IMG/VR virus record: IMGVR_UViG_3300017922_000133 | Span: 1-44,970 of that record | Source of the DNA: a virus | Reading direction: 5' to 3' (one strand) | Length of the DNA stretch: 44,970 nt | Shown: positions 6,554 to 44,970 of the stretch, piece by piece | Numbering within the stretch: the stretch's first letter is position 1 | Layout of the letters: each line of letters opens with the position of its first letter | Notes under the pieces: generated by a model | Database searches by the model: none | Seen by the model: the letters and a program-made list of their open reading frames with translations, nothing else | What the model was told of the DNA's origin: nothing | Translations under genes and position numbers: made by a program

Positions 6554-7306
6554 ATGAACAACCTGCAAATCTTTAAAAATGATCAGTTTGGGAAAATACG
6601 GATGGTAAAGATTAATAATAAACCATATGCAGTTGGAAATGATATTGCTGCAGCTTTGGGATATAGTTCTCCGGTACATGCAGTTAAGAGACATTGCAAG
6701 GGGTGTATGAATCATTCACTCCCTACATCAGGTGGCATTCAAGAAATGAAAGTTATACCTGAGGGCGATATTTATAGATTAATTATTAAAGCTGCGGATC
6801 AAAGCCATAATGAAAAAATAAAAGAAATTGCAGAGGGATTTGAAGCCTGGATTTTTGATGAGGTTTTACCTCAAATCCGAAAAAATGGCCAGTATGTTGA
6901 TAAACCTACTTCAGTTGAAGACTTAATAATTTTACAGGCAGAGTCGGTTAAAGAGTTGAAACAGAAAGTTGACCACCAGGAAGAACAAATTAAATCTATT
7001 AGGGGTGCAGTAATTCATACTGATCAGGATTGGAGAAACTGGGTTAACCAACAGTTAAATACCATAGGGTTTAGGAATAAGAATTATAGAGAGGTCAGAA
7101 AACAAAGTTATGACATATTAGAAAATAGGGCTCGCTGCAGACTAAATGTAAGACTGAATAATTTAAGAGAACGCCTAGAACAGGCTGGAGCAAAAAAATC
7201 TAAAGTTAATAAAGTCAGTAAACTTGATGTGATTGAAGAGGATACCAGGCTTAAAGAGATTTATACATCGGTTGTCGAAAAATTGGTTATTAAATATTCA
7301 GCGTAA
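6554..7306 (+). CDS. Phage antirepressor, Bro-N plus ORF6C domains
   Basis: A 250-residue antirepressor. Residues 1-115 form a Bro-N domain (NDQFGKIRMVKINNKPYAVG, DIAAALGYSSPVHAVKRHCKG, and the later EAWIFDEVLPQIRKNGQYV). A coiled-coil linker (120-145) leads to an ORF6C domain (about 148-250) recognised by DQDWRNWVNQQLNTIGF and the Arg-rich helix that follows. Such proteins bind DNA or repressors and favour lytic growth. AGGAAAGGAG precedes the ATG. It is in the early operon, downstream of a palindromic region that may control it. Confidence 0.88.
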   Translation: MNNLQIFKNDQFGKIRMVKINNKPYAVGNDIAAALGYSSPVHAVKRHCKGCMNHSLPTSGGIQEMKVIPEGDIYRLIIKAADQSHNEKIKEIAEGFEAWIFDEVLPQIRKNGQYVDKPTSVEDLIILQAESVKELKQKVDHQEEQIKSIRGAVIHTDQDWRNWVNQQLNTIGFRNKNYREVRKQSYDILENRARCRLNVRLNNLRERLEQAGAKKSKVNKVSKLDVIEEDTRLKEIYTSVVEKLVIKYSA

Positions 7307-7318
7307 GGAGTTAATATA

Positions 7319-7480
7319 ATGCCCAATAATAAAAAGAACTTAAAATTAGATATCATCCATGAAAGTATTGAAAAATTAGAAATAAAGAATGAGAGCGGTA
7401 AATCAATAGCAAAGATTGATAGTGAATTTTTAAATCTTGCTGATGGATATACCGCTCACATAAAACCTAAATCTAACTGA
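7319..7480 (+). CDS. Small hypothetical early protein
   Basis: A 53-residue frame starting MPNNKKNLKLDIIHESIEKL. It has a well-spaced TAAGGAG before the ATG and directly follows the antirepressor gene, so it is probably translated. It has no recognised domain; the second half looks like a short beta hairpin (SIAKIDSEFLNLADGYTAHI). It ends just before the convergent DUF2188 gene. Confidence 0.5.
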   Translation: MPNNKKNLKLDIIHESIEKLEIKNESGKSIAKIDSEFLNLADGYTAHIKPKSN

Positions 7481-7485
7481 TTAAC

Positions 7486-7716
7486 TTAATGTTTGTTATC
7501 TTTAGGTGGATTAGGATCATTACCATAACTATCCTTATCTCTTATTTCTCCATTAGGACGATGAATAACAACTTCACTCTTTTGGTTTTTGGCAATGTCT
7601 TTTGCTGCCTCTATTGCTTCCTTTTGAGTATTGAATGTTTTTGTAGCTTTAGAATTTCCAGCACCTTTAACTTGCCATTTTCCATTTTTCGGAGTAACGT
7701 GTTGATTTTTACCCAA
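7486..7716 (-). CDS. DUF2188 family small protein
   Basis: A 76-residue protein with the DUF2188 signature: KNQHVTPKNGKWQVKGAGNS, then TFNTQKEAIEAAKDIAKNQ, then SEVVIHRPNGEIRDKDSYGNDP. The family forms a small beta-alpha-beta domain common in phages and bacteria and is of unknown function. The start is TTG at 7716, with GGAGGTGAC upstream. It reads leftward inside the rightward early region and diverges from the gene at 7788 across palindrome copy 2. Confidence 0.85.
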   Translation of the reverse strand: MGKNQHVTPKNGKWQVKGAGNSKATKTFNTQKEAIEAAKDIAKNQKSEVVIHRPNGEIRDKDSYGNDPNPPKDNKH

Positions 7717-7727
7717 TTAAGTCACCT

Positions 7728-7757
7728 CCTTTCTATAACCATAATTATACAGAAAGG
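7728..7757. repeat. Palindrome between divergent genes, copy 2
   Basis: CCTTTCT (7728-7734) is mirrored by AGAAAGG (7751-7757) around an AT-rich core, ATAACCATAATTATAC. It is 28/30 identical to the element at 6494-6523 and in the same setting, a leftward small gene to the left and a rightward gene to the right. It may be a shared regulator-binding site or mark a duplicated cassette boundary. Confidence 0.65.
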
Positions 7758-7787
7758 AGATAAAACCTTTAAAGGAGGAATTATTTA

Positions 7788-8012
7788 ATGCAGAATATTT
7801 TAATTGATATGTTTAAAGATTTTAATAGAAAGAGTAAAGTAATATATTTTGTTGATTTAGTAGCTGGAGAAGTCAAATATTCAAAACCTGATAGTGCGTG
7901 TAAAAAGATTTGTGCTATTGATGAAGTAAAACAGGCGACTTTAGAGGATGGAAGTATTAGTTTAGATGCAGACAAACAATGGAATTTAACAATTGAAGGG
8001 CCAAAATTATAG
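7788..8012 (+). CDS. Small hypothetical early protein
   Basis: A 74-residue protein starting MQNILIDMFKDFNRKSKVIY, with AAAGGAGG 8 bases before the ATG. It looks like a compact alpha/beta domain (KVIYFVDLVAGEVKY, then SISLDADKQWNLTIEG), without catalytic or zinc motifs. It is followed after 12 bases by an HTH gene in the same operon. Function unknown. Confidence 0.55.
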   Translation: MQNILIDMFKDFNRKSKVIYFVDLVAGEVKYSKPDSACKKICAIDEVKQATLEDGSISLDADKQWNLTIEGPKL

Positions 8013-8024
8013 GAGGGAAATATA

Positions 8025-8339
8025 ATGCCATTAAATTTTAATTTTGAAAGAGAAAACAGGACTATTACAGTTGAGGCAAAAGAAATTCTGGAAAAGAAAA
8101 TAGATGCTGCTATAGCAAAATATCCTACAGGGATGAAGCCGTATCATCTAGAGGAAATAATGAGCTGTTCTAAATCTCAGGTTTATGAGTTTTTAAATAA
8201 TTATGATATACCAGGGGCTAAAAAGTTACCTAGTTTAGGTTGGAGAATACCTAGAGAGACCTTTTTAGCTTGGTGGTTTGGAGAAGAGGTGGTTCATAAA
8301 ACTAAGGATAAACTAAAAAAATCTCAGATGAGGTATTAG
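8025..8339 (+). CDS. Excisionase/MerR-like HTH protein
   Basis: A 104-residue protein with a winged-helix-like DNA-binding segment in the middle. MKPYHLEEIMSCSKSQVYEF forms the helix-turn-helix (about 36-57), followed by IPGAKKLPSLGWRIPRETFL with the typical G-W-R-I wing and recognition region ending in a WWFG helix. This arrangement is seen in phage excisionase-like and helix-turn-helix domain 17 proteins. It could be the excisionase partner of the integrase or a transcription factor; the sequence does not decide. TAGGAGGG precedes the ATG. Confidence 0.65.
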   Translation: MPLNFNFERENRTITVEAKEILEKKIDAAIAKYPTGMKPYHLEEIMSCSKSQVYEFLNNYDIPGAKKLPSLGWRIPRETFLAWWFGEEVVHKTKDKLKKSQMRY

Positions 8340-8385
8340 TCTGGAAGGGATGCTTTAAGTGAGGGATTATTTCTTAATTTAATTA

Positions 8386-8427
8386 TATGGCACGTTTGGT
8401 GCACAAACAATTTAAAAAAGTGCCATA
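8386..8427. promoter_or_regulatory. Operator-like inverted repeat before an XRE gene
   Basis: TATGGCAC (8386-8393) is repeated inverted as GTGCCATA (8420-8427), an 8-bp perfect pair, and between them TTTGGTGCACAAA (near 8396-8408) is nearly palindromic. The block lies in the 111-base gap directly upstream of the XRE gene at 8451, so it may be its autoregulatory site or an mRNA hairpin. Confidence 0.5.
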
Positions 8428-8450
8428 AAATCAAAAGGGAGGAAAATAAA

Positions 8451-8999
8451 ATGATTCAATCCAGAACTTTAGGTGAAGCAATTAGAGATGGAATGAAGGC
8501 TAAAGGACTGAAACAAAGCCAGGTTGCTAGAATGTTAAACATTGATCGTACTACTTTATCAAAATATATTAATGGTCATTTAACTATTCCAGATGATATT
8601 AAACGAAAACTGGTAGCATATTTACAAAATCCTGTATTAAGAATTAAAGTGTATGGGACGACATCATCAAATATAGTTTTTGACATGGCTCAAATTGAGT
8701 TTTATAAGACCAGTATTAAAGCAATTGAAGAATTTGAAGAAGCGATTCAAAGCATTAGAGATGTTTTAAAATTTGCTTACAATATTAAATCAGAAGATGA
8801 AATGACTGATGAACAAAAAGTAAAGTTTCAGCGTATGTTAGATGAAATTGAAGATGCAAATCATGTATGTGACATGCTGGATATTGCAGCTTCAGATTTA
8901 GGAGCTGATTTAGAAGAAAGAAATAGACGCTGCTATCAAAAATATTTAAGTCGTGGTTATTTAAGTGGGGGAATTGAAAATGAAGCAGTCAATATCTGA
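8451..8999 (+). CDS. XRE-family regulator with helical C-terminal domain
   Basis: A 182-residue protein with an N-terminal HTH (residues 6-55: GLKQSQVARMLNIDRTTLSK followed by YINGHLTIPDD) and a long helical C-terminal part (about 85-170) with acidic and hydrophobic heptads. It resembles phage-encoded regulators that lie between the early control and recombination genes. AGGGAGG precedes the ATG. An inverted-repeat block lies in its upstream gap and may be its target. It overlaps the next gene by 20 bases. Confidence 0.75.
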   Translation: MIQSRTLGEAIRDGMKAKGLKQSQVARMLNIDRTTLSKYINGHLTIPDDIKRKLVAYLQNPVLRIKVYGTTSSNIVFDMAQIEFYKTSIKAIEEFEEAIQSIRDVLKFAYNIKSEDEMTDEQKVKFQRMLDEIEDANHVCDMLDIAASDLGADLEERNRRCYQKYLSRGYLSGGIENEAVNI

Positions 9000-9147
9000 T
9001 CAAGAAAAAAAGTTTCATTATTGTGATGACTGTATTAAAAATCCAGAAAGTTGTGGCAAGGATCCATTAAAATGTCGGAAAGAAAAAGAAGCAGAATTGT
9101 ATTTTGAACTCTATGATAAACCTATATCAGGGTTTAACAGAATTTAA
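8980..9147 (+). CDS. Small Cys-rich putative zinc-binding protein
   Basis: A 55-residue protein with cysteines arranged as FHYCDDCIKNPESCGKDPLK and one more C after it. The C-x2-C ... C-x6-C pattern suggests a single zinc knuckle. The ATG at 8980 follows a purine-rich GTGGGGGA site and overlaps the end of the XRE gene, so it is likely translationally coupled. Small zinc proteins of this sort are common in Firmicute phage early regions; function unknown. Confidence 0.6.
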   Translation: MKQSISDQEKKFHYCDDCIKNPESCGKDPLKCRKEKEAELYFELYDKPISGFNRI

Positions 9148-18665: not shown

Positions 18666-20039
18666 ATGGAACTAGTCGAAGTGATTAAATTGGTGGATGT
18701 TGATGATTTGATACCTTATATTAATAATCCAAAAGAGCATCCTACAGAGCAGATAAATAAAATTGCTAGCAGCATTAAAAATTATGGTTTTACAGTGCCT
18801 TTAGTTATAGATAACCAGAATGAAATAATTGCGGGCCATGGTCGTTATGAAGCAGCTAAGAAATTAGGACTAGATGAAGTTCCCTGTATTGTAAGAGACG
18901 ATCTCAATACAGCTCAAATAAAAGCTTTAAGAATAGCTGATAATAAAGTGGCTGAATCTGAATGGGATTATGAAATGCTTGGAATAGAACTTGAGGATTT
19001 AAGCTTGCAGGGGTTTGAATTAACTTTAACTGGATTTGATGATGATGAAATAGAAGCTATCTTACAAACCGGTGAAGAAGAGGAATTAAGGGATGATGAC
19101 TTTGATGTTGATGCAGCTTTAGATGAAGATTATTTAACTGAAAAAGATGATATCTGGCTGCTTGGCAGACATAGAGTATTATGTGGAGATAGCACTGATA
19201 GCTCAGATATTGACCGTTTAATGGATGGTAAAATAGCAGACATGGTTTTTACTGACCCACCTTATAATGTTAATTATGAGTCTAGGAATGGCCTTTCAAT
19301 TGAAAATGATGATATGAAAAATGATGAGTTTTATAATTTTCTTTATGATTTTTATGATGCTGCATTAGAACATACTAAAGGAGGCGGTGCAATTTATGTC
19401 TGTCATGCTGATTCTGAAGGAGTAAATTTCCGGAAAGCTTTAACTGATTCAGGTTGGTTATTAAAACAGGCAATAATCTGGGTTAAAAACCAGTTAGTGC
19501 TTGGCAGGCAGGATTATCAATGGAAACATGAGCCTATTTTGTATGGTTGGAAACCGGGAGCTGCTCATTGCTGGAATGGTGACAGAAAACAGACAACCGT
19601 TATCCAGGATTCACCACAAGTGAAAGTTAAAGAAAAGGGAGATTTATTTGAAATACATTTTGATACAGGAATTCATACTGTAGTTATGAGAGTGCCTTCC
19701 TATGATATTTTAAGCAGTGGTGATGACACCGATAAAACAATCTGGTATTTTGATAAGCCAGTGAAAAGTGCTGAACATCCAACAATGAAGCCGGTAGGAA
19801 TACCTGGCCGAGCTATAAAAAATTCTTCAAAGAAAGATGAAATAGTTTTAGATCCTTTTGGAGGTAGTGGCTCTACGTTAATCGCAGCAGAACAGACTGG
19901 TAGGATTTCTTATTTAAACGAGTTAGATCCTAAATATGTTGATGTAATAGTTAAGCGATATATAGAATTTAAGAATAATAATTCTGATGTATTTTTAATT
20001 AGGGGTGGAGAAAAAATTCCATATAAAGATTTAATTTAA
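18666..20039 (+). CDS. ParB-N / DNA N6-adenine or N4-cytosine methyltransferase
   Basis: A 457-residue fusion. Residues 1-95 form a ParB/sulfiredoxin-like domain with IIAGHGRYEAAKKLG; 160-440 form a beta-class methyltransferase with MVFTDPPYNVNYE (DPPY near 197-200) and DPFGGSGSTLIAAEQTGR near 395-412. There is no cognate restriction gene, so it is a solitary phage methylase that may protect phage DNA or mark it for packaging. This fusion is often found just before terminase genes in Firmicute phages. It has its own strong promoter and is followed by a terminator. Confidence 0.92.
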   Translation: MELVEVIKLVDVDDLIPYINNPKEHPTEQINKIASSIKNYGFTVPLVIDNQNEIIAGHGRYEAAKKLGLDEVPCIVRDDLNTAQIKALRIADNKVAESEWDYEMLGIELEDLSLQGFELTLTGFDDDEIEAILQTGEEEELRDDDFDVDAALDEDYLTEKDDIWLLGRHRVLCGDSTDSSDIDRLMDGKIADMVFTDPPYNVNYESRNGLSIENDDMKNDEFYNFLYDFYDAALEHTKGGGAIYVCHADSEGVNFRKALTDSGWLLKQAIIWVKNQLVLGRQDYQWKHEPILYGWKPGAAHCWNGDRKQTTVIQDSPQVKVKEKGDLFEIHFDTGIHTVVMRVPSYDILSSGDDTDKTIWYFDKPVKSAEHPTMKPVGIPGRAIKNSSKKDEIVLDPFGGSGSTLIAAEQTGRISYLNELDPKYVDVIVKRYIEFKNNNSDVFLIRGGEKIPYKDLI

Positions 20040-32883: not shown

Positions 32884-33687
32884 ATGATTATAGAAATAAT
32901 TAATAAAAAAAATGAAATATTACGCCTTCCGGATCCAAAGGGCTATATTTTACAAGAGTGGGATGGTTTTGCATATCCTACTCATTCTTTAATAACTGAG
33001 AGAGCACCTAACCAATATGGAGAGACAATAATTAATAAAATATTTAGTTCTAGAGACTTGAATATTCAGTTTATAATCAAAGGAGAAAACAGACAACAAG
33101 TATTTAATCGGAGAAGAGAGATCTTAAATATTTTAAATCCAATTGAAAAAGGTGGAGTCTTAAAATGGATTCAATTAAATAATAAAAATTATGAAATTGA
33201 TGTAGAACTTGAGTCATTGAATATGCCTGGAGGTAAAGCACAGGCCAACAGCTTTCAAACAGTACAAATATCCTTAAGAGCACCATTTCCTTTTTGGAGA
33301 AAAGCTACTCCGAAAAATATTGATTTGATTTTTGATAATAATGTAGATGTATTTAATGATGGAGATGTAGAGACTGCTCCAGTTTATAAAATAAAAGGAC
33401 CTGTCTTAAATCCTATTATTAAAAATCTAACTTCTTCTACAAAAATTAAAATTAATCATTATCTTAAATCATCAGAATGTATAACTATTAACACTTCTTT
33501 TGGCAATAAAAATATTATTTTTGAAGATGAAAATAATAATAAATACAAAGCTTTAAACTTAATGGATATAGACTCAGTTTTTTCTTTCTTATCTAAAGGC
33601 AGAAATACCATTCTTTTTGAAGGGTCAGAAACTACTTCAGAAACTAATGCAAATATTAGTTTTCATGATCTATTTATAGGAGTATAA
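32884..33687 (+). CDS. Distal tail protein (Dit-like)
   Basis: A 267-residue baseplate hub protein. ERAPNQYGETIINKIFSSRD, then INRQQVFNRRREILNILNPI-type helix (here ENRQQVFNRRREILNILNPI), then GGVLKWIQLNNKNYEIDVEL are typical of the siphovirus tail component family. It would join the tube tip to the receptor-binding and Gp37-like proteins encoded next. TAGGTGAAATT precedes the ATG. Confidence 0.85.
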   Translation: MIIEIINKKNEILRLPDPKGYILQEWDGFAYPTHSLITERAPNQYGETIINKIFSSRDLNIQFIIKGENRQQVFNRRREILNILNPIEKGGVLKWIQLNNKNYEIDVELESLNMPGGKAQANSFQTVQISLRAPFPFWRKATPKNIDLIFDNNVDVFNDGDVETAPVYKIKGPVLNPIIKNLTSSTKIKINHYLKSSECITINTSFGNKNIIFEDENNNKYKALNLMDIDSVFSFLSKGRNTILFEGSETTSETNANISFHDLFIGV

Positions 33688-34145: not shown

Positions 34146-34556
34146 ATGAGTAAACTTAGTAATAAAACCAAAGAAGATATAATAAATAATTTTTTTCTTA
34201 ATCAGCAAGTTAGTTATGGAGAAAATGTATTTATAACTTTAGTTTCAGATTTAACAACAGAAGAAGAACTAAGTCTAAATTCTAGTAACATTGATGAAAT
34301 TGCTAAAGAAAGAAAAGCACTTAATTTTGTGAACCCTCATTTTGAAAGTGGAGTTGGTTATAAAACAAATAATTCTGAGAATATATTGGTTGAAATCGAC
34401 TCGATAGAAGCAAAGAATTTAAAATATATGGTTATTATGGATAGCTTGATAGATGGTAATGTTGTTGCTTGGATTACTTTAGATATTATAAAGCAGGTTC
34501 TTCCAGGTGATTTGATAGAGATTGAACAAAACAAAATGGAAATAATAATCAATTAG
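34146..34556 (+). CDS. Small tail-associated protein, paralogue 2
   Basis: A 136-residue relative of the flanking proteins. The N-terminal helix (KLSNKTKEDIINNFFLNQQV) leads to NVFITLVSDLTTEEELSLNS, and the protein ends PGDLIEIEQNKMEIIIN, matching the terminal strand pair of its neighbours. AGGGGGTTAAC precedes the ATG. Likely a baseplate or fibre-attachment protein; not assigned further. Confidence 0.6.
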   Translation: MSKLSNKTKEDIINNFFLNQQVSYGENVFITLVSDLTTEEELSLNSSNIDEIAKERKALNFVNPHFESGVGYKTNNSENILVEIDSIEAKNLKYMVIMDSLIDGNVVAWITLDIIKQVLPGDLIEIEQNKMEIIIN

Positions 34557-34569
34557 AGGAGAGATGAAA

Positions 34570-34923
34570 ATGATTATTGACAGTTATGTTAATACGATGT
34601 TAAGTGGTTTTTTGCCAGAATCTGTTGAATTGGCTCTTCACTCAGATGAGCCTGTTATAGGTTCAAATTTAAATGAATTATCTGGTGGGGATTATGTTAG
34701 AAAAACTATTGAATTTGAAAGTGCTGCAAATAATAGGATAGTTAGTAATACTAATGCGGTTACTTTTGAGAACTTGCCTGCATCAGTTATTTCTTATATT
34801 TCAATTTGTGATAGTTCGGATGGAAGCATTGTCTGTTATGATGAATTTGCACCTAATTTAAATGTTGTTTCAGGTGATATTTTAGAAATTGCTGTTGGGG
34901 ACTTACAAATTACAATAAATTAA
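34570..34923 (+). CDS. Small tail-associated protein, paralogue 3
   Basis: A 117-residue protein starting MIIDSYVNTMLSGFLPESVE, with LALHSDEPVIGSNLNELSGG, DYVRKTIEFESAANNRIVSN and a final SGDILEIAVGDLQITIN. This is the clearest member of the family of small phage tail proteins with the E-L-S-G-G-x-Y-x-R motif. The ATG at 34570 is eight bases after GAGGAG; ATG 34564 is too close. It is the third in a row of related genes before the first large fibre. Confidence 0.65.
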   Translation: MIIDSYVNTMLSGFLPESVELALHSDEPVIGSNLNELSGGDYVRKTIEFESAANNRIVSNTNAVTFENLPASVISYISICDSSDGSIVCYDEFAPNLNVVSGDILEIAVGDLQITIN

Positions 34924-34936
34924 GGAGGTTACATTT

Positions 34937-37111
34937 ATGGCTTATTCTGGAGGCACAGGTACTTCTAGCGACCCTTATTTAATAGGAAACTTAACTGACC
35001 TGCAAAATATAAATCAAAATAGTAGTAGTTATTTTAAGCTGACTTCAGATATTTTAATTGACTTTAACGATACTTGGAATATGATTAATTCTTTTTCTGG
35101 AGTTCTTGACGGTAATGAGTATAAGGTCACTTTTAATAGAAATTTAGGAGATGGTGTTGATCCATTTAGAGATTTTGCTCTTTTTAACCAAGTTTCAGGG
35201 ATAGTAAAAAATTTAAAAATAAACGGGAGAATGAATTTAGTTTGGGGTGATGGAATTAGTTTTGTTGCAGTTGATTTGCTGCAGGGAGGGTTAATAGAAA
35301 ATATCGTTGCTGAAGTGGAATTTTATTCTACCTTTGGGTCAGATACTTTTATGACAAGTGACGGACTTGCTGGTCTGGTTGTAAATTCACAAGGGATCAT
35401 TAGGCATTGCAAGGTAAATATACTGGCTAAACGACATCCTGAAGATACAAGTCATCCTGATACTACTGATTATCCAATTGATTCGATAAGTCCAATATGT
35501 AATTCCATGAGTTCTCCTGGTTATCAAGAGCTACCTCAGTTTGATGATGGTGCAGTAATTGGTGGTATTTATGAATGTGAGGCTTCTGGTGAAGTTTATG
35601 GTGGGACCGTTTCTGGGCTTGTTAATTCTGTAGAATTTGATGGATATAGTTTTGGATTTGAGAATTGTTTTTCTGATCTTAATTTAAATATTATTGGACG
35701 TAATGGTACTGGTGCAGGTTTAATTGATTCGACTAGGTTAAGGCAACCCGAATTAACAGGAGACATGGTCATAGAAAATTGTGTTTTTGTAGGTAATATA
35801 AAAACACTTGACGATAGATCTATATCTGATTCTATAGCTGGATTAGTAGAAAAATTTGCTGGGAATTGTGAGTTTATAAGCTGTTATTATAATTCTGATA
35901 AAGTAAATTATCCATCAGTGCCAACCGGAACTACTTATGCTACCTTAACAAACTCTGGTGCCCGAACAACTAGTGAATTAACAGAGCCTTTTGATCCTTC
36001 AACTTATGTTAATTGGAATTTCAATAGTATATGGAAATATATAAACTCTGAAAAATATCCGGTTATTTTTGTTCCACTAATTACAAAATCACAATTAGTT
36101 AAATTATCAGATAAGGAATTATTTTATCCTAAAGCTGGTTCTCCGGAGGTTACAATTACTGAGATTCTTTCAGCTGATGAAACTACTGCTATGAGTGTAG
36201 ATAATGTTGAAAACTTACCAGATGCGCCTAATATAATTACTTTATTTGATAGTGAGAGTTTTGAAAGCATTATTTATGAAGAAATTGACAAGAATAATAG
36301 TCAATTATTGAATTTAGAAAGAGGAGTAGACGGTACTGTAAAAGAATGGCCTATAGGAACATCAGCAAGCAGATTATTTACTGCAGAAGACCAAACAAGA
36401 TTACTTTCATTTATTAAAGAAATCGAATTGGTTTTAAAAAACAATGATATGTGGAGGGGCTTTAAAAAAATTACCAGTTTGGGTCGAGAATCTTTTAAAG
36501 GCTATTCTAATCAAATTACTGGGGCTTTTAGTATAAATATAACACCAAATCTAATAACTAATGAATTTAGCTTAGAAAGTGATGTTATGAAGGGTAACAC
36601 GCAGGTTGATTTATTTATAAATGCAACTACCTTTCCAATTTATATAGATTTGATTACCACTGCTGATGGTACTTCTTTAATTGATAATGGAGCAGTTGAA
36701 GTGACTGCTGCTGGAGTAAATACTTTCACATTAAACTCAGCCGCAGAATTAATTCAGTTTGATGCTGTAATGTATTCTGATAGTGGGGGTACAACTGAAA
36801 TAGTTAGGAATACTTTTGATATTAAAGGTGCCACTATTGTCTCAATTGATTCAGTTACTGATGGTGATGGATGGTTATATACTACTGTGAATTTTAACGG
36901 TTATGATCAAGTCTGGGGCGAGATAGAGGATTTAACAGGAAATAGCATATCAGCTGCACCACAACCAACAGATACTACTGGAGATAACTTCTGGATAGAT
37001 TTTGATTCGGCTAAAACAGCTGGAACAGAGTTTAAAGTTGTAATTTACGAAACAGACGCTTTAATTAATAAATTAGATGAAATGTCTGCAACTGTTCAAG
37101 CAGCCTCTTAG
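34937..37111 (+). CDS. Tail fibre with GLUG-type beta-helix
   Basis: A 724-residue fibre or receptor-binding protein. It opens with AYSGGTGTSSDPYLIGNLTD, the usual start of secreted GLUG-repeat adhesins, followed by LTSDILIDFNDTWNMINSFS and GVLDGNEYKVTFNR, then irregular beta-helix coils to about residue 370. A central module (about 395-480: LPDAPNIITLFDSESFESII, LLNLERGVDGTVKEWPIGTS) recurs in the next gene. The last 250 residues are beta-rich and end in a helix. It probably mediates adsorption to the host envelope. AAGGAGG precedes the ATG. Confidence 0.8.
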   Translation: MAYSGGTGTSSDPYLIGNLTDLQNINQNSSSYFKLTSDILIDFNDTWNMINSFSGVLDGNEYKVTFNRNLGDGVDPFRDFALFNQVSGIVKNLKINGRMNLVWGDGISFVAVDLLQGGLIENIVAEVEFYSTFGSDTFMTSDGLAGLVVNSQGIIRHCKVNILAKRHPEDTSHPDTTDYPIDSISPICNSMSSPGYQELPQFDDGAVIGGIYECEASGEVYGGTVSGLVNSVEFDGYSFGFENCFSDLNLNIIGRNGTGAGLIDSTRLRQPELTGDMVIENCVFVGNIKTLDDRSISDSIAGLVEKFAGNCEFISCYYNSDKVNYPSVPTGTTYATLTNSGARTTSELTEPFDPSTYVNWNFNSIWKYINSEKYPVIFVPLITKSQLVKLSDKELFYPKAGSPEVTITEILSADETTAMSVDNVENLPDAPNIITLFDSESFESIIYEEIDKNNSQLLNLERGVDGTVKEWPIGTSASRLFTAEDQTRLLSFIKEIELVLKNNDMWRGFKKITSLGRESFKGYSNQITGAFSINITPNLITNEFSLESDVMKGNTQVDLFINATTFPIYIDLITTADGTSLIDNGAVEVTAAGVNTFTLNSAAELIQFDAVMYSDSGGTTEIVRNTFDIKGATIVSIDSVTDGDGWLYTTVNFNGYDQVWGEIEDLTGNSISAAPQPTDTTGDNFWIDFDSAKTAGTEFKVVIYETDALINKLDEMSATVQAAS

Positions 37112-37123
37112 GTGGTGATATAA

Positions 37124-37675
37124 ATGAGCTATAATACTGAAAGCTCGAAATATAATATAAATAGCAAATATAATTCTATTAGTTCATCTGATATTTACGA
37201 AGAGATTAGCATTTCTTCTCATAGTGATATTAGTATTGAATTATCCTTATTAAAATCAGTTGGTCCTTTGACTCCAATTAATATTGAGACTCAAATAAGT
37301 GTGTTAACTTATAATTTGTTTGACCCATTACCACGCGCCTTTTTACCAGAACCAGGTTCTCCTAGAACTGATTTAGTTGAAGATTTAGATACTGAACTTA
37401 AAGTTTTGGATTCATCTGTTTTGCCAGATCCACCAAATATATTAACTATTTATGATAGGAATAATAATTTTGAGACTATAATTTACAATAAAATAGAAGG
37501 TAATTTAATTAAAGAACTAACACGTGAAATAAATGGTAGCAAATTAGAATGGGGAGCACATTGTTATGTTAGCAGAAATTTTACTTCTTACGATCATTTA
37601 TTTTTACTTGATTCTTTAAAAGATATACGAAAAATTTTATATAAAGAGGGCATTATTGAACTGGATGTGAAATGA
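37124..37675 (+). CDS. Tail fibre adaptor module protein
   Basis: A 183-residue protein. The first 80 residues are Ser/Ile-rich and repetitive (SKYNINSKYNSISSSDIYEE). The rest carries the module LPDPPNILTIYDRNNNFETI ... LTREINGSKLEWGAHCYVSR followed by NFTSYDHLFLLDSLKDIR, clearly related to residues 395-480 of the upstream fibre. Such modules are common in phage tail proteins and probably attach parts of the fibre. TAGGTGGTGA precedes the ATG. Confidence 0.7.
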   Translation: MSYNTESSKYNINSKYNSISSSDIYEEISISSHSDISIELSLLKSVGPLTPINIETQISVLTYNLFDPLPRAFLPEPGSPRTDLVEDLDTELKVLDSSVLPDPPNILTIYDRNNNFETIIYNKIEGNLIKELTREINGSKLEWGAHCYVSRNFTSYDHLFLLDSLKDIRKILYKEGIIELDVK

Positions 37676-37676
37676 G

Positions 37677-38708
37677 ATGAAACGTTATGACATAAATAAT
37701 TATGATATTCCTTTTAACGATTTTTCTCCTTATATAAAAATCGACTATCGAAGTAAAGCAGTATTAAAATCTCCTATAAATTACAAATTGAAAATAGCAT
37801 TTAAGGCTAATTCTTTCTATCAAAGTAATTTAGCTACTAACTTGAGTGTAAGCTTTAATGCTGCTTCACAACTTGAAATGCCTTTATATAAAAAACACGA
37901 GGTTCTAAGTGAGTTAGTATTAACAGCTGAAAGTAGAGTATCAATTAATTTAAAATCAACATCACTTAGAGCTATTTTGATGATATTATCTCCAGACTTT
38001 GATGTGCTTTCTTTTTTAGAAACTTATCAAGATTTTGTATGGAATTATCGATGGAGAAATGTAGACAATTTTGAAGTTTCAATTAGTAAATTTAAAGATG
38101 AGAGTAAATTTTTAATTACAGGGAATTATATAGCAGTTAAAAGAGGAGAATTTGTTAAAGCTGGCAAGATTAAAGATAGAGAATTAACAATTAATGCAAA
38201 TGGAGAATTTATAAAAGCTAGAGGTAAAGGCTTAGGTGAGATATTTGAAAATAGAATAGCTTTTAATGGAGTTAATGAGGGTAATGGTTATGATAGTTTT
38301 TCTGGTCCAGCTGAGTCAGCCATGAAACATTATGTAAATGTTAATGTTCAAAATCCAAATGATATCAGGCGAAAAGTACAGAATTTAATAATCGAAGATG
38401 ATCGTCATAAAGGAAGAGTTATAAATTATAGAGCTCGATTTCAGAAATTATCTGAGATACTTTACGATATAAGTAAAATTAGTGGTTTGGGTTGGGATTT
38501 AGTTTTGGATTTAAAAACTAAGGAAATAATTTTTAAGGTTTTGAAAGCTAAAATAAGAAAAGGAATAATATTTAGTCCTAATTTTGATTCAATTACAATG
38601 CTTAATTATAAAGAATCATCAAATAAGAATGAAAACACAGCATTAGTTGCTGGACAAGGTGAAGGTGCTGAGCGAATGTTACTTGAGGTAAATAGGAATG
38701 AGGTGTAA
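37677..38708 (+). CDS. Gp37-like tail protein, N-terminal half
   Basis: A 343-residue protein. From about residue 100 it matches the N-terminal half of the siphovirus ReqiPepy6 Gp37-like family: DVLSFLETYQDFVWNYRWRN, NFEVSISKFKDESKFLITGN, ANGEFIKARGKGLGEIFENR, AMKHYVNVNVQNPNDIRRKV, SGLGWDLVLDLKTKEIIFKV and NTALVAGQGEGAERMLLEV. In the family the chain continues after G-x-G-E-G-x-x-R with a second half; here a stop comes at once. That second half appears at the C-terminus of the next gene. Residues 1-95 are a separate beta region. The start has only a weak ribosome site and lies one base after the upstream stop. Confidence 0.78.
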   Translation: MKRYDINNYDIPFNDFSPYIKIDYRSKAVLKSPINYKLKIAFKANSFYQSNLATNLSVSFNAASQLEMPLYKKHEVLSELVLTAESRVSINLKSTSLRAILMILSPDFDVLSFLETYQDFVWNYRWRNVDNFEVSISKFKDESKFLITGNYIAVKRGEFVKAGKIKDRELTINANGEFIKARGKGLGEIFENRIAFNGVNEGNGYDSFSGPAESAMKHYVNVNVQNPNDIRRKVQNLIIEDDRHKGRVINYRARFQKLSEILYDISKISGLGWDLVLDLKTKEIIFKVLKAKIRKGIIFSPNFDSITMLNYKESSNKNENTALVAGQGEGAERMLLEVNRNEV

Positions 38709-38713
38709 AAATT

Positions 38714-41700
38714 ATGGCTCAAACATGGCCTTATGACCATACACAGTCTGGGCTTAATTTTGATTTATCAATAAGTTCTAATTTAATAAGAGAAGAAACA
38801 GTAAGAGAAGTAACAAATGAATATACTAACGAAAATGGAGATATAGTCACAATTACAGACACTTACTATTATTATGAAATAGTAAATCTGTTAGATTATA
38901 AGGATGTAGAGTGGTGGGAGGATTTAAAACTATATTTAGAAGATTGGACTAATGAAACAAATCATAGTTATACAATTTATCAAAACTCTGTGAGTATAGA
39001 ATGTGATAAAGAGGTTTGGTTAAGTGCTTGGGATGACAATTTCAATTACACAGGCTTAATAAGTCCCGAAGATTTAGCTCCCACAGAAAAAAGAATTTTA
39101 GCGGCAATATCAGTTGTTGATTATAATGCTGCTCCAAATGATGTGCGTTTAGTACCAACTAAACATCGGATTGGAATTGTTTCTAAAAATGAGCCAGTAG
39201 ACTTTAAAGAAGTTTATTATTCATTAGCAATTAGGGAAGATAGAGGTATAGGGAATGCTAGTATATCAGGAAAATGTATAGCAAGTCATCCAAAAAATCC
39301 TACTAAAAATGCTCTAGAGGGTGGGTATTTTACACTCAATGAGACGCCTAATGCTAGTAATCATTTTACTTTAGATGAGAATGGTGAATTCTATGGTGAG
39401 ATTGCTCCTAATTTTGTTGGAGATGGTTCAAAAATACAACCTTATTTAGAATATATTTATAATGGACAGCAAGATGAATTAATTAGACCAGAGCTTCCTA
39501 AACCTACTTTGGTAACTAGTGTAAGGGTGTTTCCTGTGGATATGCTACCACCGGGAAACGGAGAAGATTATTCGTTTAGTGTCTATAAAGAGCTTTGGCC
39601 AGAGAAAAGTTATGTATTTAATAATATAGTTTTGACAGGTGCTCCCGTAAATAAAGAAATCAGAACAGCCGAAGATTTGTTTAATATTAGATATGCTCAG
39701 AATAGGGATTTTACTATTGAGGAGGACATAGATTTATCAGATTTTGAATTACCAAGTTATGTTCCTTACGATTCTTGGGAAAGAAAAATTTATAAAAAAG
39801 GTCATTTCCCACCTATTAGGTATGGGCACGAGTATGATAATTATAATTATATATCTTTAAGATTAAACGGAAATAATCATGTTATAAAAAATTTAACTTT
39901 TAAAAATAATGAAGTAGATATAGTTGGGTTGTTCGCATTACTTGGTGAATTTAAGGGAAGCGAAAAAATTGAAGTTAAAAATCTAAATTTAGAAAGTATT
40001 GATTTAGAAGCAGGTTCTGATGTTGGTGGTTTAGCTGGGGCTTTACAAGCGGATAATTTAAAAAATATTGAGATAAAAAGGGTACAAGTGACCGGGGTTA
40101 TTAATGCTGAAAGTGCTGGTGGAATAGTTGGACAAGCTGTTTATGGGGATAAACCTTCCCGTATTGAATTATGTAGTTTTATTGGGGAAATAACTAGTAA
40201 TAGAGAAGAAGGTTGGGGTGAAGTAGGAGGAATAGTTGGATACGGAGAAATAAATATACACAATTGTTATGCTAAAGCTACTCTAACGGGTGATTACGTT
40301 GGTGGTATTTGTGGTGATTTTTACGGTAATCCAAATAACACAATAGAAAATTGTTACTTTGTAGGAGAAATTTATCCTACTGACTCCTCATCTACAGTTT
40401 CACCAATAGGCGGTTACAATGATGGTTATGTAAAGAATTGTTATTACAATAATGAAGTGTTTCCAGATGAGGTTAATATAGATTATCCTGATGATAATAT
40501 AAAGGGAAGAAAAACTGAAGAAATGACCTATCCACATGACCAAGAAACCACTTTTATAAATTGGAATTTTGAAGATATTTGGGGAATCAGAGAGTTTAGA
40601 AATGAAGGTTATCCTAGTTTTAATCCGATAGAAGGCTTACTTTTAGAGGGTTCCTCTAATTCAATCTATAAGATTTTTAAGTGGAAGAAAAATTACTACT
40701 TAGATTTAAAAGCTAAATCAAAAACTTTATTACCTTCTTTAGAAGTTATTAAGTGGTTTCCCATAATTAGAACTGATATGTCTTATAGAGAAAATAATCG
40801 TTTGCATTTTGGAGGAACTTTGATTAATCCTGGCCCATATGATGAAGAACTTTGGAATGGTCAAATTTCAGGTTACTTACAATATGCTCCAAAATTTGCT
40901 GATTTCAAAAGTTTTTCTACTTGGCAGACAATCCCACAGAAACTTCCAGTAATGAAATATCAGACTGTTTCAGCCAATTTAGTAAATGATATATTGAGTT
41001 CTGATAGAGAAATTGAACTTGAAAGTATGCCTAATGAATTTCAATTAGGAGATATTAGTTTTTATAACTATGCAATGATTACTGATGGAGATAATGTTGA
41101 AAGAATTGGTTATGCTGAAGTAGAAGGCAATAATTTAAAGCAAGTTGATAGAGGTATACTTGGAAGCAGAGCTCTAGATTTCTCTGTTGGTGATACAGTT
41201 TATATATCATATTTAGAAGGAAGTTTAAGTTGGGATGATTCGGTAGGTCCTGTAGGTAAAAGAAGTGAATATAGATACCGTGCAGCTATTGAAGTTGATA
41301 CTAATTTGAGAACCACAGGAAAAAGCGTTACTTTTGATTTTTTTGGTGGAGAAATGATTTCTCCAATTGATGAGTCAGAGTCATTTGAAGATTTAGGTCG
41401 AGGAGAATTATTTATAGATGCACGTGATTTAGAGTTTGAAGATGAGTTATTTGATAGAGCAAAACTCAAGTTTGATGAAATGGAATTTGAAACATGGAAT
41501 TTAGATGAATTTAAAGATTGGACTTGGGAGGAATTTAAAGATATTAAGACACTACAATTTAGTACAATGACATTAGCTGAATTAATAAAAATAGCAGTTG
41601 GCATCACAGATTATACTGAAAGAGATCTTATTAATAATTACAGTCGGGAAGAAATTGAGAAAATTATTAGAGAAAAGCTCGATATAGTAACTGCTGCTGA

Positions 41701-42160
41701 AATAAATTCCTGGGATTTTGATGTTAGTAAACTTGTAGCTAGATTAATAACTGGTGAGCCTAGTGGAGCTTACGATAATTGGACTGAAAGAGAGATTAAA
41801 GATTTTTTAATTACCATGCTAACTAATGAATTCAGTTTTGCAGATTTTGAGGAAAATTTCCCTTTCGATAAGTGGGAGCAAATTATGAAATCGAGATTAG
41901 AATTTAATATTAATAATAATGCTTCTATTGAGGTTGAATATAACCAATATGGTCCTTATAATTATATGATTGATTTTCAATTGGGTGATATTATTATTGT
42001 TGATTACCCAGATGTATTTAGAGCTATGATAAGAATAATTGAAGTAAAAGAGGAATTTACTCAGGAAGGCAAAAAATTCACCTTAACTTTAGGTAAAGAA
42101 TTTGAGACTTTAATAACTAAACTCAAAGCAGATGAAGATTCAATAAGCGGTAGATTATAA
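38714..42160 (+). CDS. GLUG fibre fused to the Gp37-like C-terminal half
   Basis: A 1148-residue protein. Residues 1-310 are a beta-rich adaptor. About 315-655 are GLUG-type coils (IRTAEDLFNIRYAQNRDFTI, GNNHVIKNLTFKNNEVDIVG, GSDVGGLAGALQ, SAGGIVGQAV, GDYVGGICGDF, NCYYNNEVFP). About 750-840 is a tail adaptor module (VEGNNLKQVDRGILGSRALD). From about 893 it reads GRGELFIDARDLEFEDE and later YNYMIDFQLGDIIIVDYPDV with FTLTLGKEFETLITKLK, which is the C-terminal half expected of the Gp37-like protein encoded just upstream. The two products would assemble into one tail-tip unit displaying the GLUG fibre. GAGGTG precedes the ATG. Confidence 0.78.
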   Translation: MAQTWPYDHTQSGLNFDLSISSNLIREETVREVTNEYTNENGDIVTITDTYYYYEIVNLLDYKDVEWWEDLKLYLEDWTNETNHSYTIYQNSVSIECDKEVWLSAWDDNFNYTGLISPEDLAPTEKRILAAISVVDYNAAPNDVRLVPTKHRIGIVSKNEPVDFKEVYYSLAIREDRGIGNASISGKCIASHPKNPTKNALEGGYFTLNETPNASNHFTLDENGEFYGEIAPNFVGDGSKIQPYLEYIYNGQQDELIRPELPKPTLVTSVRVFPVDMLPPGNGEDYSFSVYKELWPEKSYVFNNIVLTGAPVNKEIRTAEDLFNIRYAQNRDFTIEEDIDLSDFELPSYVPYDSWERKIYKKGHFPPIRYGHEYDNYNYISLRLNGNNHVIKNLTFKNNEVDIVGLFALLGEFKGSEKIEVKNLNLESIDLEAGSDVGGLAGALQADNLKNIEIKRVQVTGVINAESAGGIVGQAVYGDKPSRIELCSFIGEITSNREEGWGEVGGIVGYGEINIHNCYAKATLTGDYVGGICGDFYGNPNNTIENCYFVGEIYPTDSSSTVSPIGGYNDGYVKNCYYNNEVFPDEVNIDYPDDNIKGRKTEEMTYPHDQETTFINWNFEDIWGIREFRNEGYPSFNPIEGLLLEGSSNSIYKIFKWKKNYYLDLKAKSKTLLPSLEVIKWFPIIRTDMSYRENNRLHFGGTLINPGPYDEELWNGQISGYLQYAPKFADFKSFSTWQTIPQKLPVMKYQTVSANLVNDILSSDREIELESMPNEFQLGDISFYNYAMITDGDNVERIGYAEVEGNNLKQVDRGILGSRALDFSVGDTVYISYLEGSLSWDDSVGPVGKRSEYRYRAAIEVDTNLRTTGKSVTFDFFGGEMISPIDESESFEDLGRGELFIDARDLEFEDELFDRAKLKFDEMEFETWNLDEFKDWTWEEFKDIKTLQFSTMTLAELIKIAVGITDYTERDLINNYSREEIEKIIREKLDIVTAAEINSWDFDVSKLVARLITGEPSGAYDNWTEREIKDFLITMLTNEFSFADFEENFPFDKWEQIMKSRLEFNINNNASIEVEYNQYGPYNYMIDFQLGDIIIVDYPDVFRAMIRIIEVKEEFTQEGKKFTLTLGKEFETLITKLKADEDSISGRL

Positions 42161-43894: not shown

Positions 43895-44970
43895 ATGGGT
43901 AGATGTTGTATAGATTGCTTTAATGATAGTATTTTAATAAATTATATTGAAGAATATGGTTCTCTGGGACGTTGCAACTATTGTGGTTCAGATAATATTA
44001 TGAGTATTGAAATTTCAGAACTATCTGATCTGTTTCAACAATTTTCAGATATTTATGAAGTAACAGCTTATGGGGAACATTATGGTCCTGGTCAAAGTGC
44101 TTTGGATAGAGGAGAATTGCTGACAGAATTTGTTCAGAACGATTGGTATATTTTTAGTGATGAGTTAACTCTAGATGAGAAAAGTTCATTATTTTTTGAA
44201 ATTATTAATTTTAATAGATCTCCCGAATATTGTTTAGATGATTGTGATTTATATTCACGAAAAGAAGATTCATTTCTATATGTAGGGGGTGAAACTATTT
44301 GGGATGAGTTTTGTGAAAAAATAAAACACAAAAATAGATTTTTTATTGAGGATAGCTGGTTGAAAGAATTTCTTAATAATACAATTCATCAATATTCTCA
44401 TTCTATAGAAGAGAATACCATTTTATATAGAGCTAGAATAATGAAAAATGATCAATCTGAAATTTATTCTGCTGAAAAAATGGGGCTGCCCCCGAGAAAA
44501 AAACAAAAAATGGGAGAGCAAATCCTATAGGAATCCCATATTTATATCTTGGTGATAAACCTGAAACTGTTATATCAGAAGTTAGGTCTTCAAAAGGTGC
44601 AAGAATAACTGTAGCAGAATTTAATTTAGCAGAAACATTAGAGATAGTTGATTTGACAAAATACAAGTATTTCAAGTCAGCTTTTGAATGTGATGATTTA
44701 GAAGAAGAGTTACTAAACCATGATTTGGTTAGAGAATTTAGTAAAAGTCTGTCTACTCCAGTAAATTCAGATTATGATGATATTGACTATATTCCTACTC
44801 AATATTTAACTGAATATATCAAAAATCTTGGATATTATGGTATTAAATTTAAAAGTTCTCTTAGTGATGGTGAAAATATAACTTTATTTAGCGAAAATCA
44901 AGTAGAAATAACAGATATCTGTTTATATAAAGCAGAAGACATAAATTATGAGTTTAGCAAAATAACTTAG
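43895..44970 (+). CDS. HEPN/RES-domain toxin-like protein, frame interrupted (-1)
   Basis: A cargo gene of about 358 residues when read across a -1 shift. The first frame (43895-44530) has a zinc ribbon (CCIDCF ... CNYCGS), then a HEPN/RES N-terminal domain (LLTEFVQNDWYIFSDELTLD, WDEFCEKIKHKNRFFIED) and the start of RES (NTILYRARIMK, AEKMGLPP). It then ends early at 44530. The -1 frame continues with the RES core: NGRANPIGIPYLYLGDKPET, VISEVRSSKGARITVAEFNL and LEIVDLTKYKYFKSAF, to a TAG at 44968. RES domains degrade NAD+ in toxin and abortive-infection systems. It may be shifted on purpose at A AAA AAA or be a pseudogene. GGGAGGT precedes the ATG. Confidence 0.78.
44497..44503 (+). other. A AAA AAA slippery run in the HEPN/RES gene
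   Basis: In frame the codons are AGA AAA AAA CAA, giving A-AAA-AAA followed by C, a known type of -1 slippery heptamer. Slipping back one base gives ACA AAA AAT GGG AGA, which restores the conserved G-R-A-N-P of the RES domain. A missing C in the preceding C5 run would equally explain the shift. Confidence 0.6.

Follow-up and report, generated by a model that had tools for sequence, protein, structure and literature searches.

The locus examined here raises the question of whether one structural domain of a phage tail can be supplied by two neighbouring genes, and, if so, why a long fibre should be found at the point where the two parts meet. The window, meaning the whole stretch of DNA that was analysed (IMGVR_UViG_3300017922_000133, 44,970 bases), belongs by its gene content to a temperate siphophage: it encodes an integrase (1-1152), terminase, SPP1-type portal, capsid E, tape measure, Dit, holin and amidase. 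A search of genome contigs with two alignments gave no match to a bacterial or archaeal host. Two genes on the plus strand, separated by five bases, are of concern: 37677-38708, encoding protein A (343 aa), and 38714-42160, encoding protein B (1148 aa).

A Gp37-like hub domain in two adjacent genes

Proteins A and B each match a different part of PF14594 (Sipho_Gp37), both above the curated cut-off of 26.2 bits. Residues 101-335 of A correspond to profile positions 2-253 of 370 (E 3.1e-37) and residues 1068-1128 of B to positions 309-370 (E 4.3e-7); the whole domain is covered by the two proteins jointly, and neither chain covers it by itself. The same division is seen with PHROG 538 (“minor tail protein”), at 31-276 for A and 315-386 for B. 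A second, complete hub elsewhere in the window was considered and ruled out, as the 44,970-base record has no further PF14594 match, and no full-length hub was found elsewhere in the records of the relatives sharing this division.

The original prediction had taken A for the N-terminal half of a Gp37-like protein, stopping near GQGEGAER, and had placed the second half only at the C-terminus of B. Searching Pfam with each half bears this out, in that A alone does not give full coverage and the C-terminus of B is the complementary part of the same family. GQGEGAER ends at residue 333 of A and is followed by MLLEVNRNEV and a stop codon, so that the C-terminal sequence reads ...VAGQGEGAERMLLEVNRNEV. 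The motifs quoted for B are likewise present: GRGELFIDARDL at about 896-906, some 890 residues into the protein, LGDIIIVDY at about 1090-1098 and TLGKEF at about 1125-1130. Unsplit versions, which were to be sought in related phages, exist as well (L040 among them): A and the end of B together align over the full length with the single-chain hubs Methanoculleus virus Blf4 gp33 and Paenibacillus phage HB10c2 gp16, both uninterrupted and with a short loop between VAGQGE...R and RxExFVDARD. Ten residues are invariant in 30 unsplit hubs (E125, G158, R166, G184, G247, R252, E267, D271, D313 and G317 in L040 numbering), and all ten are kept across A and B, six in A and four in B, in the window as well as in the split relatives L011, L012 and L028. 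As read from these sequences, a hub domain of about 370 residues is spread over two genes that lie side by side with little space between them: A stops just past the strand after GQGEGxxR, and B gives the ELFIDARDL strand, a helix and the final strands. The features of the two genes are collected in Table 1.

Table 1. Features of the Dit gene and of genes A and B in the window
Feature	Position	Strand	Basis
Dit gene	32884-33687		Profile match
A residues 1-100: beta-rich N-terminal extension, variable length	37677-37976	+	Alignment; outside PF14594
A residues 101-333: N-terminal part of hub, PF14594 2-253, through conserved GQGEGAER	37977-38675	+	Pfam, profile alignment
MLLEVNRNEV: final hub strand of A (= strand 254-258 of unsplit model) and invariant RNEV; chain break in next loop	38676-38705	+	
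GAGGTG: last two codons of A; Shine-Dalgarno of gene B, 8 bases before ATG at 38714	38700-38705	+	
B residues 1-310: fast-evolving fibre/adaptor region at the N-terminus (30% identical to L011)	38714-39643	+	
B residues 311-640: solenoid region with GLUG (best stretch 504-525)	39644-40633	+	Pfam
B residues 641-890: FN3-like region adjoining hub, with inserted “VDRG” connector domain	40634-41383	+	FN3-like by eye
B residues 893-925: hub part, strand ELFIDARDL and next helix (= 263-291 of unsplit hub)	41390-41488	+	
B residues 926-1062: helical domain inserted in hub	41489-41899	+	
B residues 1063-1148: final strands of second tube-like hub domain (PF14594 309-370)	41900-42157	+	

The N-terminal extension of A measures about 100 residues in the window versus about 240 in L012 and L016 (both 7284-8000), and in the relatives it contains short repeated beta-like motifs (NxLxLNYxN).

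The position of the break in the fold was read from L040, an unsplit relative 39% identical to A, for which an AF2 model was built with 30 family members (pLDDT 85.9, pTM 0.79). Foldseek comparison of this model with the PDB returned the Bxb1 and Douge hubs, NF5 Tal, MuSo2, 80alpha, Mu, diffocin, T4 gp27 and VgrG, with E-values of 1e-12 to 1e-17 to the Bxb1, Mu, 80alpha, T4 and VgrG hubs; the gp27/VgrG/Tal hub fold with its two tube-like domains is thus seen in the L040 model, and is assigned to the window purely through homology. Sequence searches of the PDB gave no match for A (phmmer) and chance matches only for the family profile. With hhalign and the profile of the unsplit family, A aligns with L040 7-258 (prob 100, E 4e-50) and the end of B with 291-373 (prob 98, E 6e-14); given that the ELFIDARDL segment of B accounts for 263-290, the cut falls in the last third of the hub, where a short loop (259-266) connects strands 254-258 and 267-271. 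Across 74 further unsplit loci the loop, counted from motif to motif, nearly always has 13-18 residues. An hhalign comparison of the same profile with Bxb1 gp25, made to place the inserts of solved hubs, was not significant except for a weak C-terminal match. Set against the domain description of T5 (PMC10038345) and the domain boundaries of gp27, the cut loop would be hdIII, the elaborated loop of the second tube-like domain.

Very probably, then, A and B jointly encode the tail hub (baseplate hub/Tal, gp27-VgrG superfamily) of a temperate siphophage, the two chains presumably co-folding and complementing one another. Three A and three B chains would assemble below the Dit ring into a hub trimer of the usual kind. 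Each subunit would combine one A with the last ~260 residues of B, and the remainder of B would extend outwards from the break to form a host-contacting fibre. The hub end of B might instead complete the A chain of a neighbouring subunit, the fibre then acting as a staple across the trimer. Trimeric tail proteins commonly exchange chains, and the cut loop would permit this; the simplest history, however, a cut in an existing single-chain fold, keeps completion within the subunit, and with only 13-18 residues in the loop of unsplit hubs we consider swapping improbable.

Conservation of the break and its junction

Scanning viral contigs with A and with the end of B showed the same cut in eight distinct viral genomes, the window included (nine contigs and the window, near-identical contigs being merged), all of them metagenome contigs without a cultured host. 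The nearer relatives are 3300007157, 3300042784, 3300043112, 3300013020, 3300033694, 3300026628 and 3300026744, and the more distant ones 3300028378 and 3300035034. Contigs 3300026628 and 3300026744 stop before the hub half of B, the second half lying beyond the contig end; the proteins of 3300026628 are the same as those of 3300033694 over the shared stretch, and 3300033694 includes the second hub half. No split member was found by tblastn among 50,697 phage records, where the isolates found were all unsplit.

Maximum-likelihood analysis of the joined hub places the split members in a single clade apart from all unsplit members; a single origin of the split hangs on this one branch (96/88), which has long neighbouring branches. 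The A half is only 41-49% identical between the two split subclades, which argues that the split is old, and the cut is kept down to about 45% identity. Retention of the same cut across a group of related viruses points to a real design and not a broken gene; the split is a conserved, clade-specific gene organisation.

Both halves are, to judge by substitution rates, under purifying selection. Comparing the window with its nearer relatives gives a dN/dS of about 0.17-0.28 in A and of 0.06-0.14 in the hub half of B, figures which are rough given that synonymous sites are near saturation. Comparison of B with L011 gives 70-79% identity in the hub parts and 30-43% in the fibre parts, residues 1063-1148 being the most conserved part of B (79%). 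These values bear on a further possibility, in which A is a working hub alone and the hub piece of B is a vestige of an older hub gene broken by a fibre gene. A does account for 250 of the 370 profile positions, the greater part of the family, and the hub piece is a minority of the long fibre protein B. A vestige would decay, however, whereas this piece stands at 79% identity to L011 against 30-43% for the fibre, evolves under the low dN/dS just given and has kept all four of its family-invariant residues; A, moreover, is without the end of the second tube-like domain, which forms part of the Dit-facing ring in characterised hubs. We therefore regard a vestigial hub piece as very unlikely.

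With its ribosome-binding site lying in the last codons of A, translation of B would be coupled to that of A. Every split relative that has the RNEV ending retains the GAGGTG; in the subclade of the window, A ends in RNEV-stop and the DNA reads ...aATGAGGTGta(a/g), and the simplest explanation of this invariant protein ending is that the ribosome-binding site of B sits within its codons. The frame of B opens only at 38702, behind a TGA, and overlaps that of A only over the seven bases 38702-38708 (ggtgtaa), in which no slippery heptamer was seen by reading. That A and B are really one protein, the break being bridged by programmed frameshifting or being due to a sequencing or assembly error, would suit the -1 frame of B relative to A in most split members (the usual phage frameshift direction), but it is scarcely credible: the same break occurs in independent contigs from several metagenomes, and its presence in eight distinct genomes led us to reject an assembly error, while programmed frameshifting, made unlikely by the seven-base overlap without a slippery site and by L004, where B lies in the frame of A behind a stop codon, was rejected too, the ribosome-binding site before B being what is conserved instead.

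Fibre and helical domains inserted in the hub

The region found at the break differs in length among the split viruses. In L028 and L031, the most distant split relatives, B has just 414 residues, namely about 155 residues judged FN3-like by eye (no Pfam match), which are all that these viruses have at the break, and then the hub piece; the A chain of L028 has 416 residues. The window and L011 have about 890 residues there, with GLUG repeats and a further connector domain. Pfam GLUG (PF07581) scores above cut-off in B (E 1.4e-7, two stretches) and is also found in L011 and in the third chain of L012; it is absent from L028 and L031. A span of about 890 residues of adaptor and GLUG coils had been predicted ahead of the second hub half; the length holds, but the composition needs amending, as an FN3-like region with an insert (about 650-890) adjoins the hub half. 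GLUG is upheld by Pfam, its best stretch being only residues 504-525, and residues 641-890 gave no Pfam match.

In L007/L012, L010/L013 and L004 the fibre is encoded in two genes, with a second break inside the GLUG region, and therefore the solenoid too seems to be divided between two chains. The second fibre cut of the three-gene relatives (L012 8735-12150, L013, L004 6865-10628 and L015 8729 onward) lies at ATGA or TAATG overlaps; it is of the same kind in two subgroups, at different sequences. The tail proteins at 34937-37111 (724 aa) and 37124-37675 (183 aa) have modules in common with B. The 724-aa protein is 30% identical to residues 490-634 of B in the GLUG region, a connector domain is common to the 724-aa and 183-aa proteins (37% identity over 106 residues), and the 183-aa protein has a weak match to B 763-819.

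The same loop is also occupied outside the split clade. L052 (IMGVR_UViG_3300033145_001793, 6992-9142) encodes a single-chain Gp37 hub, without the helical insert described below, in which a Laminin_G_3 lectin-like domain sits in exactly the loop that is cut in A and B; the insert comes to about 350 residues (Laminin_G_3 and further residues) and the 716-aa ORF is uninterrupted. The loop has therefore served independently as a site for adhesion-type domains. In the simplest history, an adhesion domain would have entered the hub loop of a single-chain ancestor, as in L052 today, and the chain would then have been cut at the upstream edge of the insert; the insert would have grown from one FN3-like domain (L028, L031) to the GLUG fibre of about 890 residues (window, L011), and in some relatives the fibre would have been cut a second time.

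A second insertion lies within the hub half of B itself. A helical domain of about 137 residues (926-1062) follows directly on the hub helix, separating the DARDL part from the final strands, and because this segment interrupts the hub half, the Pfam match of B begins only at position 309. The insert is present in every split relative with that part sequenced, in both subclades, and is absent from the unsplit hubs examined; its W/F-rich motifs include EFKDWTWEEFKD and NFPFDKWE. When B was modelled alone with AF2 from a 9-row alignment (whole-chain pLDDT 44), the helical insert was the sole confidently predicted part (mostly 70-90). The final strands at 1071-1075, 1093-1098, 1102-1116 and 1119-1126 and the helix at 1129-1139 follow the order and lengths of their L040 counterparts (295-302, 319-324, 328-342, 346-353 and helix 359-375), but at pLDDT 32-46 versus mostly 85-94. 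Such low values fit a piece that needs A for folding, but may also stem from the shallow alignment of nine rows.

Comparison with known tail hubs

Unsplit Gp37-like hubs such as Blf4 gp33 and HB10c2 gp16 resemble A and the end of B over their full length, with all invariant residues kept, and in their general neighbourhood of tape measure, Dit, hub and lysis genes. They are, however, single chains: in place of the gene break and fibre of the split clade they have a short loop, usually of 13-18 residues, and they are without the clade's helical insert of about 137 residues.

Divided hubs are known from lambda and RcGTA. Lambda gpL contains HDI and gpJ contains HDII-HDIV, one domain being made jointly by the C-terminus of gpL and the N-terminus of gpJ, and RcGTA is similar (PMC10721106); the break of this type has been called “a focus of hypervariability” near the cell wall (PMC13243795). 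Lambda gpL and gpJ, like RcGTA gp13 and gp15, therefore share with A and B one hub fold over two nearby genes (PMC10721106; PMC13243795), a domain completed by both chains, and extra domains that gather at the break. The site differs, lambda being cut after HDI in the HDII-insertion region and A/B much later (between the strands equivalent to L040 254-258 and 267-271). The lambda fibre is at the C-terminus of gpJ, whereas in B the fibre precedes the hub part; and while lambda gpL and RcGTA gp13 carry an Fe-S cluster, the 343 residues of A, on reading, include no cysteine.

Insertions late in the hub are also on record. The Tal proteins of Brussowviruses TP-778L and SW13 carry inserts between sub-domains 3 and 4 of the gp27-like part (PMC9437275), “evolved Tals” have domains inserted in the gp27-like part (PMC7291167), and HDIV of lambda gpJ includes an additional beta-sandwich (PMC10721106). 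As in A/B, the extra domains exit from a loop late in the hub, and the Brussowvirus inserts project far outwards; the insert-bearing Tals, however, are single chains with lysin or sugar-binding modules, whereas A/B has a cut chain and a long GLUG fibre. L052 has its insert at exactly the same loop and differs in being one ORF.

The arrangement of A and B is real, conserved and unusual. The original prediction was right to call the design unusual, though it is less without precedent than supposed, given the insert of L052 in one chain and the split hubs known in lambda and RcGTA (PMC10721106). A limited literature search found no description of a Gp37-like hub cut here, in which the second chain carries the fibre ahead of its hub part; split hubs and hub-loop insertions are already known, and it is the cut site and the arrangement that appear to be undescribed. 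During opening of the T5 hub, the hdIII helix serves as a hinge (PMC10038345), and for that reason a fibre rooted near hdIII could, speculatively, pass receptor binding directly to the tube opening. We suggest tentatively that these viruses possess an undescribed class of siphophage hub, in which the hub domain would be built from two polypeptides, with the cut between adjacent strands, and the fibre rooted at the cut and not at the hub C-terminus; the fibre could then be exchanged, lengthened or recut without disturbing the tube, and receptor contact would act directly on the part of the hub that moves at opening.

Conservation of tail hubs extends over phages, tailocins and type VI secretion, and a naturally divided hub marks a loop that tolerates a chain break and insertions of hundreds of residues. 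Alongside lambda/RcGTA, A/B is a second case of a divided hub that has gained host-contacting parts at its cut, which in A/B lies at another site, and a fibre rooted at the cut, if true, would be a testable case for tail opening by receptor binding. It also carries a warning for annotation: Pfam labels A a hub and B a GLUG fibre, and the incompleteness of both is missed.

Some other features of the window are recorded here. Pfam Gp80 (podophage GP4 fibre protein) is matched by each of two small neighbouring proteins (34146-34556 and 34564-34923); the two share 27% identity, likely reflecting a tandem duplication. Beside the terminase, 18666-20039 encodes a DNA methylase with a ParB N-terminal domain fused to it. 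Past the lysis genes, 43895-44970 holds a protein with a HEPN/RES N-terminal domain (PF18870) and then a small ORF, both found in L011 too; the pair is possibly a phage-borne toxin-antitoxin or defence-type system.
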